From NCBI GenBank assembly GCA_021781555.1, contig JAJXWQ010000025.1:1-43054 (forward strand): 43,054 nt of DNA, written 5' to 3'. A program made the translations under genes and the position numbers. The DNA comes from a bacterium. GTDB taxonomy: Bacteria > Cyanobacteriota > Sericytochromatia > S15B-MN24 > VGJW01. Positions 16,234 through 42,858 of this stretch are shown piece by piece (the first letter of the stretch is position 1; every line of letters starts with the position of its first letter). The notes beneath the pieces were generated by a model, which worked only from the letters and a program-made list of their open reading frames with translations, made no database searches and was not told the origin of the DNA.

Positions 16234-17145
16234 TCAGCTGTTGGCGGTTTCGAGGGCCGACAGCTGGACGATGGCTTGTTCCCTCTGGCTGGCGATGCGC
16301 AGGCTCATCAGATGTGAATCCTGGAGATCGGCGTCCATGGAGTGCAGCTCTTCCATGATGCGCCCCAGGGCGCCGTCGAGCCTCGCGACTCCCTGAGAGG
16401 CCTGGGCCACCTCGTCGGCCGACCGCTGTACCGACAGCGCCGTCGCTCCCGACTCCTTGGCGACCGACTCGAGCAGCTCCCGGATATCGGAGGTCGACTG
16501 CGAGATCGTCTGGGCCAGGTTCTGCACCTCGTCGGCCAGAAAACCGAAGCTCTTGCCTTGCTGGCCGGCGCGGGCGGCCTCGATGGCTGCGTTCAGGCTC
16601 AGCATGCGAGTGAAGTAGGCGATGTCGGCGATATCCTTGAGGACCTCCTCGATCTGGCGACTGCGCTGCCCGAAGGACTCGACCAGTTGCAAGGAATCCT
16701 GGATCGAGGCTCGTACGGCGGCCATGGCCGCGAGGGCTTCCTTGAGCATGGCCCGGCCCTCGACGAGGAGGGCATCGGCCGCTTCGCTGGTCCCGACGAG
16801 CTGACCGACGGAGTCCGCCACGATCCCCACGTGATCCAGCAGCGGTCCGAGCTCCTGGCGGACTCGAGCCAGATCCGAGCGCCGGCCGTTTGCGGCCTCC
16901 AACAGGCGCTGGCGTTCAGCTTCGAGGAAAGCGACCCGGTCCGCCAGGGCCTGCTCGCGTCGTCGGAGCTCGGCCAGTGCCCGATCTTGCCCGGCCAGCT
17001 GCTGCCTGGCCCGGTCCAGGTCGCCCTCGAGATCGTGCTCGGCGGGCGCCGGGTACGAGGCGGCCGATGTCGGGGATCGATCCGGCGTCCGGAGCCAGGG
17101 GCGGATCCAGGAGGACAGCCACGGGGAGCGCTCGCGCATGGTCAT
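16234..17145 (-). CDS. Soluble chemoreceptor-like protein (MCP signalling domain)
   Basis: A 303-residue protein with no transmembrane segment or signal peptide. Residues about 38-90 are a charged coiled coil; about 110-290 form the MCP helical hairpin, with the conserved tip region centred on YFTRMLSLNAAIEAARAGQ and KSFGFLADEVQNLAQ. It should signal to a CheA/CheW complex or an equivalent from the cytoplasm; the N-terminus has no recognisable sensor domain, so the input may be a partner protein. No cheA or cheW is in the window, but a CheY-like receiver and a CheX-like protein lie 1-3 kb away. Divergent from the unknown gene at 17222. Confidence 0.82.
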   Translation of the reverse strand: MTMRERSPWLSSWIRPWLRTPDRSPTSAASYPAPAEHDLEGDLDRARQQLAGQDRALAELRRREQALADRVAFLEAERQRLLEAANGRRSDLARVRQELGPLLDHVGIVADSVGQLVGTSEAADALLVEGRAMLKEALAAMAAVRASIQDSLQLVESFGQRSRQIEEVLKDIADIAYFTRMLSLNAAIEAARAGQQGKSFGFLADEVQNLAQTISQSTSDIRELLESVAKESGATALSVQRSADEVAQASQGVARLDGALGRIMEELHSMDADLQDSHLMSLRIASQREQAIVQLSALETANS

Positions 17146-17221
17146 CGGCCCGCCTTACCCGTACACCTCGACAGCCCGAATTCTGGGTATACCTAATATG
17201 CGGGAGATGTGGGAGGTCACG

Positions 17222-17806
17222 ATGGCTCTATCTCCGATCACTGGATCCTATGGCAATGTTAGCAGTGTTGGACCCTTCGGGGCGAATACCGGGACCACGG
17301 TTCCGGGCCTTGGTTTCGATGCCAAGAATGCCACGGATGTGATGACCTTGGCCGGCAGGGCCATGCAGATGTGCCAGACCCTACCACCGCAGTTCGCGAG
17401 CGTCGTCGACAGCTACATGCGTGGCTTCCAGGCGCTGTCCTCCCCGGACGCGGTCGACATCCAGGCGGCCAGCGTCAAACTCAACAACGTGCTGCAGATC
17501 CTCGCTCGCGCCAACGCGCAGACCGCGCTCAGCCGTGTCGAGAACCTGCTCGTCGACCCGACGCAGTATCTCGAGGACGGCCAACAGGATCCCTACTCCG
17601 AGATCGGGTCAGGGTATTCGACGGTCCCGGACCCCTCGCAGATCCAGGTGGACTCCGGGGTCGACACGGGCGTGCAGACGGCCTATCAGGCGATCCTGGG
17701 CCAGCTTGGCAACCTCGGCGCGGATTCGCTCACGACGACCAGCACGCAGCTGAGCGTCGAGGCGTCGCTCTCCTCGATGATCAGCCAGAGTCTTTTCGGC
17801 AGCTAG
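17222..17806 (+). CDS. Unknown protein (194 aa)
   Basis: I do not recognise this 194-residue protein. The ATG at 17222 is chosen because GGGAGG lies 5 nt upstream; the frame is open further upstream but without a better site. The N-terminal 45 residues are Gly/Ser/Thr/Pro-rich (SPITGSYGNVSSVGPFGAN) and the rest is predicted helical, Gln/Ala/Leu-rich, with an acidic stretch in the middle (YLEDGQQDPYSEIGSG). There is no signal peptide or membrane segment. The style (low-complexity Ser/Thr/Gln, few charges) recalls secreted or filament-associated proteins but this is only an impression. Its TAG stop is the first three bases of the dispersed hairpin array. Confidence 0.6.
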   Translation: MALSPITGSYGNVSSVGPFGANTGTTVPGLGFDAKNATDVMTLAGRAMQMCQTLPPQFASVVDSYMRGFQALSSPDAVDIQAASVKLNNVLQILARANAQTALSRVENLLVDPTQYLEDGQQDPYSEIGSGYSTVPDPSQIQVDSGVDTGVQTAYQAILGQLGNLGADSLTTTSTQLSVEASLSSMISQSLFGS

Positions 17807-18090
17807 ACCTTTTGCAGTTCGAACGGGGCCCTCTGCGCGGTCGCTACGCTGCGCTGCGCAACCGGGCCCCGTATCTTTTTCGAGTGTGAACGGGTCCCTC
17901 TGCGCGGTCGCTACGCTGCGCAACCGGGCCCCGTATCTTTCTCGAGAGTGAACGGGTCCCTCTGCGCGGTCGCTACGCTGCGCAACCGGGCCCCGTATCT
18001 TTCTCGAGTGTGAACGGGTCCCTCTGCGCGGTCGCTACGCTGCGCAACCGGGCCCCGTTTGACTCCCGGGGCCCGGTCCTGTCCGGGCGA
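17804..18090 (+). repeat. Dispersed hairpin element, four-unit tandem array (copies B1-B4)
   Basis: Four head-to-tail units start at 17821, 17888, 17950 and 18012 (spacings 67, 62, 62; the first carries a 5-bp GCTGC insertion). The array begins with the TAG stop of the upstream gene (TAGACCTTTTGCAG) and fills the gap between convergent genes. Each unit can form an outer stem ACGGG..CCC/GGGCCCCGT with an inner GCGC/GCGC stem. Units 1-3 are followed by TATCTTTTTC or TATCTTTCTC on the plus strand, so they could work as serial intrinsic terminators. The last unit ends in the longer GTTTGACTCCC tail seen at other loci. Confidence 0.9.
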
Positions 18091-18097
18091 ATTTGCC

Positions 18098-18355
18098 CTA
18101 AGTCTCTTCGGGGACGAGCTCTAGGCCGCCGAGGAGTTCGCGAAGCTCCTGGAACTCCTCGGCAGTGAATGTGATGCCGTTCTTGCCGGGCTTGTACTCG
18201 TCGGTCTTACGATCCTGGTAGTACTGGCGCAGAGAGACGTAGATGCGGTTCTTGAACGACTTCTGCTCGACCCGGATGACATCGCCTGAAGCCTTGGGCA
18301 GCTCGGCCAAGGTGGCGATCGTCTTCCATTCATCTGCTGCTGCTTCTGCTGGCAT
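18098..18355 (-). CDS. PC4/p15-like ssDNA-binding protein
   Basis: An 85-residue protein matching the bacterial transcriptional coactivator p15 (PC4) family: IRVEQKSFKNRIYVSLRQYY followed by KTDEYKPGKNGITFTAEEFQEL is the core beta-sheet plus helix that binds single-stranded DNA as a dimer. Bacterial members have been linked to ssDNA binding and transcription but their role is poorly defined. AGGAGA precedes the ATG. It is the third gene of a probable cheY-like, cheX-like, PC4 operon, 15 bp after the CheX-like gene. Confidence 0.82.
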   Translation of the reverse strand: MPAEAAADEWKTIATLAELPKASGDVIRVEQKSFKNRIYVSLRQYYQDRKTDEYKPGKNGITFTAEEFQELRELLGGLELVPEET

Positions 18356-20517: not shown

Positions 20518-20910
20518 ATGATCACGTTGACCGAAGTCGCGAGCGCCAAGGTCAAGGACTTCATCAAGGCGCAGAATCGCGACGATCTTGCGCTGCGGGT
20601 CTACGTGAAGCCCGGCGGGTGCTCGGGATTCAGCTTCGGCATGGGCCTGGATGAGCCCCGCGAGGACGACGAAACCACCGAGATCAACGGGATCCGCGTC
20701 GTCGTCGACCCCCAGAGCATCCCCTACGTCGAGGGTGCGGTGGTGGACTACAAGAACACCATGATGGGCGGCGGCTTCGCCATCACCAATCCCAATGCCG
20801 TCTCCTCGTGCGGCTGCGGCTCGGGTGGCTGCGGGGGCGACGAGGATGCCGAGGATCCCGAGGGCTGCGGTTCGGGTGGCTGCGGCTCGGGCGGCTGCGG
20901 CTGCCACTGA
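20518..20910 (+). CDS. A-type iron-sulfur carrier (IscA/ErpA/SufA family) with Cys-rich tail
   Basis: A 130-residue protein with AGGAGG 9 nt before the ATG. Residues 1-100 are a standard HesB/IscA fold: ITLTEVASAKVKDFI, VKPGGCSGFSFGM with the first cluster cysteine, DPQSIPYVEGAVVDY, and the paired cysteines in SSCGCGSGGCG. A-type carriers deliver Fe-S clusters from the scaffold to apo-proteins. Unusually, the C-terminus is extended by an acidic linker and a repeat of CGSGG units, giving seven Cys and a terminal His after residue 95. No isc/suf partner genes are adjacent. Which paralogue (ErpA, IscA, SufA) cannot be told. Confidence 0.88.
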   Translation: MITLTEVASAKVKDFIKAQNRDDLALRVYVKPGGCSGFSFGMGLDEPREDDETTEINGIRVVVDPQSIPYVEGAVVDYKNTMMGGGFAITNPNAVSSCGCGSGGCGGDEDAEDPEGCGSGGCGSGGCGCH

Positions 20911-42650: not shown

Positions 42651-42754
42651 CTAGAGTGCTCCCGGTTTGAATGGATCGAGCCCGATGAGTCAAACGGGGC
42701 CCGGTTGCGCAGCGTAGCGACCGCGCAGAGGGCCCCGTTCAAACTGCAAAAGGC
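42651..42754 (+). repeat. Dispersed hairpin element, copy I (first 104-bp unit)
   Basis: Starts CTAGAGTGCTCCCGG and contains GTTTGA...TCAAAC-type and AACGGGGCCC/GGGCCCCGTT stems (10 bp perfect in this unit). It is joined head-to-tail to copy J with no spacer. Confidence 0.93.
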
Positions 42755-42858
42755 CTAGAGTGCTCCCGGTTTGACTGGATCGAGCCCGATGAGTCAAACG
42801 GGGCCCGGTTGCGCAGCGCAGCGACCGCGCAGAGGGCCCCGTTCAAACTACAAAAGGT
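42755..42858 (+). repeat. Dispersed hairpin element, copy J (second 104-bp unit)
   Basis: Differs from copy I at only a few positions (GACTGG for GAATGG, GCGCAGCG for GCGTAGCG, CTACAAAAGGT for CTGCAAAAGGC). The next bases CTAGA contain the complement of the TAG stop of the edge gene, so the element again abuts a stop codon. Confidence 0.93.

Follow-up and report, generated by a model that had tools for sequence, protein, structure and literature searches.

A tandem hairpin array between convergent genes as a probable expanded copy of a MITE-like transposable element

The window analysed here, a bacterial stretch of 43,054 nt, contains four near-identical hairpin units that stand in tandem between two convergent genes, and the question raised by this locus is what these units are and how they came to lie there. 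A reading made from the sequence alone had offered a series of intrinsic terminators insulating the two genes or a tandem small-RNA cluster. Our results favour a different answer: the array is probably (about 0.83) a tandem-expanded copy of a non-autonomous, MITE-like transposable element whose transposase would be supplied in trans. This account, based on a mobile element, takes the place of the functional guesses (terminators, small RNAs) and presents an element family of high copy number from a bacterial lineage that has been little studied.

The array and its neighbours

The array that the sequence-only reading described is real, and its hairpin cores start at 17821, 17888, 17950 and 18012, with the predicted spacing of 67, 62 and 62 nt in a repeat search. 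TRF reports 17821-18058 with a period of 62, 3.8 copies, 94% match and a score of 410. Hairpin cores 2 (17888-17934), 3 (17950-17996, delimited by the repeat search and TRF) and 4 (18012-18058), all on the + strand, do not differ across 47 nt. Core 1 (17821-17872, + strand) carries the 5-nt insertion noticed earlier (an extra CTGCG) and also differs by G for T in GGGGCCC. Strong hairpins are likewise found, with + strand folds of -39.0 kcal/mol for core 1 (z -5.9), -33.5 kcal/mol for core 2 (z -4.1) and -33.4 kcal/mol for core 4 (z -3.2). The three + strand junctions, as defined by sequence, lie at 17873-17887 (ATCTTTTTCGAGTGT, similar to the 5' end module), 17935-17949 (ATCTTTCTCGAGAGT) and 17997-18011 (ATCTTTCTCGAGTGT), and the sequences said to follow three of the units are indeed present there as TATCTTTTTC, TATCTTTCTC and TATCTTTCTC.

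The extent of 17804-18090 given earlier contains the array, and only its edges are slightly off. The whole multi-core element is 293 bp long and runs from G17806 to C18098 on the + strand, bounded by end modules that are placed as in full-length copies. Its 5' end reads GACCTTTTGCAGTT, and the 5' end module GACCTTTTGCAGTTC (17806-17820, + strand) matches the family's 5' end pattern with at most three mismatches. The 3' end module (18059-18098, + strand) is of an older subfamily and has diverged in sequence, while it retains the length seen in full-length copies and ends in C before TA. The two copies of the target duplication are TA at 17804-17805 and TA at 18099-18100, assigned from the sequence and from the TA rule given by full-length flank pairs and empty sites; the target here is C-TA-A.

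The array fills the convergent gap as proposed, and both flanking genes, as called by a home-made gene caller, stop with TAG at the element edges. The left gene (17138-17806, + strand, 222 aa, no Pfam match) ends in a TAG composed of TA 17804-17805 and G17806. The right gene (18098-18355, - strand, 85 aa) encodes a PC4 domain (PF02229, E 1.3e-15) and ends in a TAG at 18100-18098 composed of TA 18099-18100 and C18098. The locus lies 17.8 kb inside its contig. Ten matches to the core pattern occur in the window, compared with 0.00 expected from shuffles. On the - strand, 42692-42845 contains the cores of two full-length young copies in tandem, with CTAG at the element edges. Elsewhere in the window, a 15-bp tandem repeat at 20863-20902 codes for a tail rich in Gly and Cys in a protein predicted to be of iron-sulphur assembly type.

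A dispersed family inserted at TA

The array is one locus of a dispersed repeat family. Searching the 3.8-Mb genome with one 62-nt unit gave 458 candidates at first look and 82 strong matches, and the family's 5' and 3' end patterns occur at 242 and 228 genome sites, respectively, with at most three mismatches (reversed controls, 0 each). In sampled stretches of 0.95 Mb, which include the window and are weighted to element-rich contigs so that their density is not to be extrapolated, 232 core matches form 175 groups, namely 132 single, 33 double, 6 triple and 4 quadruple. Aligned contexts show young single copies to be 102 bp long (GRCCTTTTGCAGTTTGAACGGGGCCC TCTGCGCGGTCGCTTCGCTGCGCAACC GGGCCCCGTTTGACTCATCGGGCTCGATCCATTCAAACCGGGAGCACTC), with the gene-free form G[A/G]CCTTTTGCAG...GGGAGCACTC flanked by a duplicated TA. 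Such a unit consists of a 5' end module, a GC-rich core predicted to form a hairpin in either RNA or DNA, and a 3' end module; 93 young full units in the sample diverge from the consensus by a mean of 1.6%. Short, gene-free and present in many near-identical copies with fixed ends, the 102-bp family has these features in common with MITEs. What its two ends have in common is mainly GTTTGAAYGG, located 11 nt in from either terminus (13 of 21 positions match by eye), and most of the terminal 10 nt differ, so that the terminal inverted repeats expected of a MITE are poor. No relatives were found in phages, plasmids or viral contigs. A second dispersed palindromic repeat (GTTCGAGGGAACCGGCGGGTTCCCTCGAG...) was seen at L029:13941-14039 and at loci L071-L078 of G001, a genome placed in the same genus as the source genome by kinship lists; this second repeat has dozens of matches in G001 and a few in the source genome.

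The element duplicates TA within a YTAR target that is mostly CTAG. Among copies in which both ends can be recognised, the flank pairs are CTAG/CTAG (57), TTAG/CTAG (11), CTAG/CTAA (8), CTAA/CTAG (3) and TTAG/CTAA (2), with a few others besides. Before the 5' TA stands C or T, and after the 3' TA the base is A in 12 of 114 copies. This independent variation of the bases outside TA accords with TA as the duplicated sequence. Duplications of four bases (CTAG) or three bases (TAG) were also considered and rejected, as the flank pairs are often unlike outside TA. CTAG is rare in this genome, at 0.16 of expectation. Across the window and sampled stretches, CTAG, TTAG and CTAA are all strongly depleted (0.10-0.16 of expectation), and GATC and TCGA are over-represented 3.5 and 3.3 fold.

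Empty sites support movement of the element. Orthologous sites of six insertions are present in G001 without the element, and therefore the element behaves as a non-autonomous, MITE-like transposable element. The clearest is CAGCTCAGGACC (CAGCT-CA-GGACC) in G001, where the genome under study has CAGCT-TA-[element]-TA-GGACC. Other empty sites in G001 keep TA beside one flank and have diverged on the other side, several of them without a base-exact junction, and the site of a three-core array on contig C24 lacks the array in G001. Locus L010 of the MAG DBS2-1.bin124 is identical in sequence to a G001 locus. By their phylum composition, the kinship lists hint that the source bacterium may be a non-photosynthetic relative of Cyanobacteria. 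The flanks of the 17804-18100 array were not found in the relatives G001-G004, with a contig break in G001, and insertion at this particular locus is therefore inferred from the family.

The first base of the element is G and its last is C, which turns the flanking TA into TAG on both strands. Of the 64 insertions with both ends intact, 37 adjoin a TAG stop of a predicted gene, at the 5' edge in 16 cases, at the 3' edge in 19 and at both in 2; the other 27 are away from TAG stops, and none of the 64 lies inside a gene. By comparison, the 322 CTAG sites away from elements comprise 77 at stops, 120 in genes and 125 in intergenic positions. When only non-coding sites are considered, 58% of elements are at stops versus 38% of unoccupied CTAG (chi-square about 7.7), a moderate enrichment for which target choice and the removal of damaging insertions are sufficient in most part. 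Selection for a gene-end function may also contribute. A stronger version seems to us unlikely: in it the element is adapted to stop codons, its termini always restoring TAG from TA on either strand, so that overlapping convergent stops can be occupied free of coding cost, and tandem duplication adjusts the number of hairpins, which would serve as a variable transcript-end or supercoiling barrier. The rule of TAG on both strands explains how several hundred insertions can border coding sequences without harm, and with it convergent-gap arrays of related genomes are readily interpreted.

The sample contains 43 arrays, of which 13 have periods up to 75 and 24 have periods near 100-104. In the family, one to four cores stand between the end modules, a BOX-like modular architecture. 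All 51 pairs of neighbouring cores in these arrays are head-to-tail and none is opposite, and this uniform orientation favours tandem duplication over a series of separate insertions into CTAG, which is palindromic. Cores are 96.3% identical within short-period arrays and 91.8% identical between arrays. The suggestion of recent local expansion is accordingly upheld as to tandem expansion, and "recent local" holds only in part, since the identical spacer of the window array (junction 3) recurs exactly at C6:46142-46203 on another contig, next to one core and a second, broken one. This recurrence implies that the array form was copied or shared between loci. It is very improbable that the unit number is an artefact of assembly. 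The assembly is fragmented (181 contigs) and several contigs start inside such elements, which could lead to a miscount, but the units of the array differ from one another (the insertion in core 1, unlike junctions), and similar arrays occur at the 13 short-period sample loci and, with a related core in short tandem arrays, in a different genus (G004). Contigs C9, C15, C16, C128, C152 and C169 start inside, or at most about 60 bp from, element copies, and the element family appears to fragment the assembly.

These observations can be arranged into a possible course of events. Flank statistics and empty sites show the 102-bp element inserting at TA in YTAR, with CTAG preferred and TA duplicated, and movement would have depended on a transposase supplied in trans. 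Because the termini are G and C, a TAA or TAG stop hit by an insertion would remain a stop. CTAG is rare and often located at TAG stops, and insertions within genes, which are missing from the pattern, were apparently purged by selection. The window copy most likely entered a CTAA common to the overlapping stops of the convergent genes: deletion of the element on paper gives CTAA, where both stops would overlap, and the pre-insertion allele would have been GGCAGCTAAGTCTC, with a single TA and overlapping TAA/TAG stops. After insertion, the core was presumably duplicated head-to-tail, yielding the observed architecture of four cores with one 5' and one 3' module.

Terminators, small RNAs and the source of transposase

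That a bank of intrinsic terminators insulates the convergent genes, and was selected for that role, is unlikely on our evidence, and a purpose-made bank is unsupported for the family. The hairpins are strong (z -3.2 to -5.9 on the + strand), T-runs stand behind three cores of the window array, and the family is enriched at gene 3' ends. However, at least five T in the eight positions after the core, in the sense direction, were found behind 17 of 51 array-internal cores (those of the window array among them) and behind 2 of 94 single copies, leaving 92 of 94 without a T-tract; there were none on the opposite strand, and none behind the last core of any sampled array. The T-run of the array is similar to the 5' end module that the element itself carries (CCTTTTGCAG, in some copies TATCTTTCTCAG) and that in single copies is located upstream of the hairpin. 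Orientation relative to genes is about equal, with 18 elements facing stop codons by the 5' edge versus 21 by the 3' edge and thus no bias. Arrays also lie between divergent genes, stop-codon placement follows the CTAG/TA target, and a simple terminator scan found none in the array. Native terminators behind the element did not serve as a test, since the scan detected 21 of 595 versus 15 of 595 shuffled. Pairing of the outer stem, at 72.6% of cells in 46 diverse cores (those of relatives included) compared with 67.4% on average and 71.5% at most in 1000 column shuffles, points to selection on the hairpin and would suit a terminator, yet this is only suggestive, as the shuffles ignore relatedness and arm-to-arm palindrome correction could mimic the signal. 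The inner stem is nearly invariant in sequence and so gives no sign of covariation. Judging from sequence, it is possible that the internal junctions of the window array have some, weak terminator activity, and any effect on transcript ends between the two convergent genes is most likely a by-product. A tandem small-RNA cluster or structured regulatory RNA, the other function suggested earlier, is extremely unlikely. The whole array folds very stably (z -9.6) and the inner motif is kept between genera, but no Rfam family was matched in scans at both thresholds, a promoter-like site was looked for and none was found, and the several hundred copies are dispersed with transposon-like flanks.

A third alternative concerns the mode of movement and holds that the array is a REP-type element moved by an IS200/IS605-like Y1 (HUH) transposase, with no target duplication and with the 3' CTAG as part of the element. 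The element is palindromic and located at gene ends, GTAG-tagged REPs are reported to give flanking genes TAG stops (PMC3733652), and the genome has one Y1 transposase with a decayed element copy upstream. Nevertheless, the bases outside TA vary as a TA duplication predicts, with A in 12 of 114 after the 3' TA and C or T before the 5' TA. Aligned contexts show neither GTAG nor CGTC beside the stem. In the Y1 protein the first His of the HUH motif is replaced by Gln, and the protein falls short of the cut-off for REP transposases. We regard this origin as improbable. The single IS200/IS605-type Y1 gene lies at L009:1456-1884 (G000:C155), and the decayed copy about 170 bp upstream of it corresponds to the element's 3' half.

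For the MITE-like element that we favour, the helper transposase may be of the IS630 or the IS5 type. Duplication of TA and preference for CTAG are what would be expected of an element mobilised by IS630, and this family is plausible as helper because the genome's IS630 copy sits inside CTAG. This candidate helper lies at L031:610-2131 (G000:C164); its transposase frame is open, its inverted repeats are perfect and stand within CTAG, and it carries one IS630-family gene (NF033545, E 2.4e-72). The ends of this IS630, GTACCTCTGCACAGAGG, have only weak likeness to the element ends, and the 5' end of the element resembles the IS5-type ends GAGACCTTTGCA of BrickBuilt and ISNme1 (PMC4596501). The pattern TANRCCTTTTGCAH, used for an autonomous partner with the same 5' end, was unmatched in the genome (such a partner is usual for a MITE but no requirement), and the transposase loci scanned for element-like ends (IS630, six DDE_Tnp_1 and Y1) gave none that was convincing.

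Comparison with known elements

The element is a new family of a known kind, MITE-like and TA-targeting with BOX-like internal modules, and it resembles BOX, BrickBuilt and RUP. In the BOX elements of Streptococcus pneumoniae, boxA and boxC ends surround a variable number of tandem boxB modules (PMC3049150). Both are non-autonomous and have end modules, variable tandem middle modules and stable RNA folds, but the likeness is architectural only and no sequence relation is expected, as our element is GC-rich and has a TA target often at stops. BrickBuilt of Porphyromonas gingivalis is a MITE with a minisatellite between leader and tail (PMC4596501). Its IS5-type end, GAGACCTTTGCA, is similar to GACCTTTTGCA at the 5' end of our element. 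BrickBuilt differs in its 23-nt repeats, in target duplications of varying length and other sequence, and in having 19 copies. RUP of S. pneumoniae is a 107-bp element with ends like those of IS630-Spn1 (PMC3049150). RUP shares inverted repeats with its IS, whereas the ends of our element are poorly matched and no partner IS was found.

Other comparisons bear on the target. The IS630 family duplicates TA and IS630 prefers TA in CTAG, as stated in the part of PMC2170065 that cites Tenzen and Ohtsubo (1991), and the element is alike in both respects. MITEPsy1 of Pseudomonas syringae is 100 nt long and inserts at CTAG or YTAA (PMC3189936), while differing from the element in its 18-nt inverted repeats, 4-nt duplication and few copies. 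GTAG-tagged REPs are short palindromes near gene ends, often clustered and sometimes giving a TAG stop (PMC3733652). REPs carry GTAG or CGTC at one stem end, whereas in our element 13 or 37 nt separate the core from the TAG, which is formed by TA together with the terminal base.
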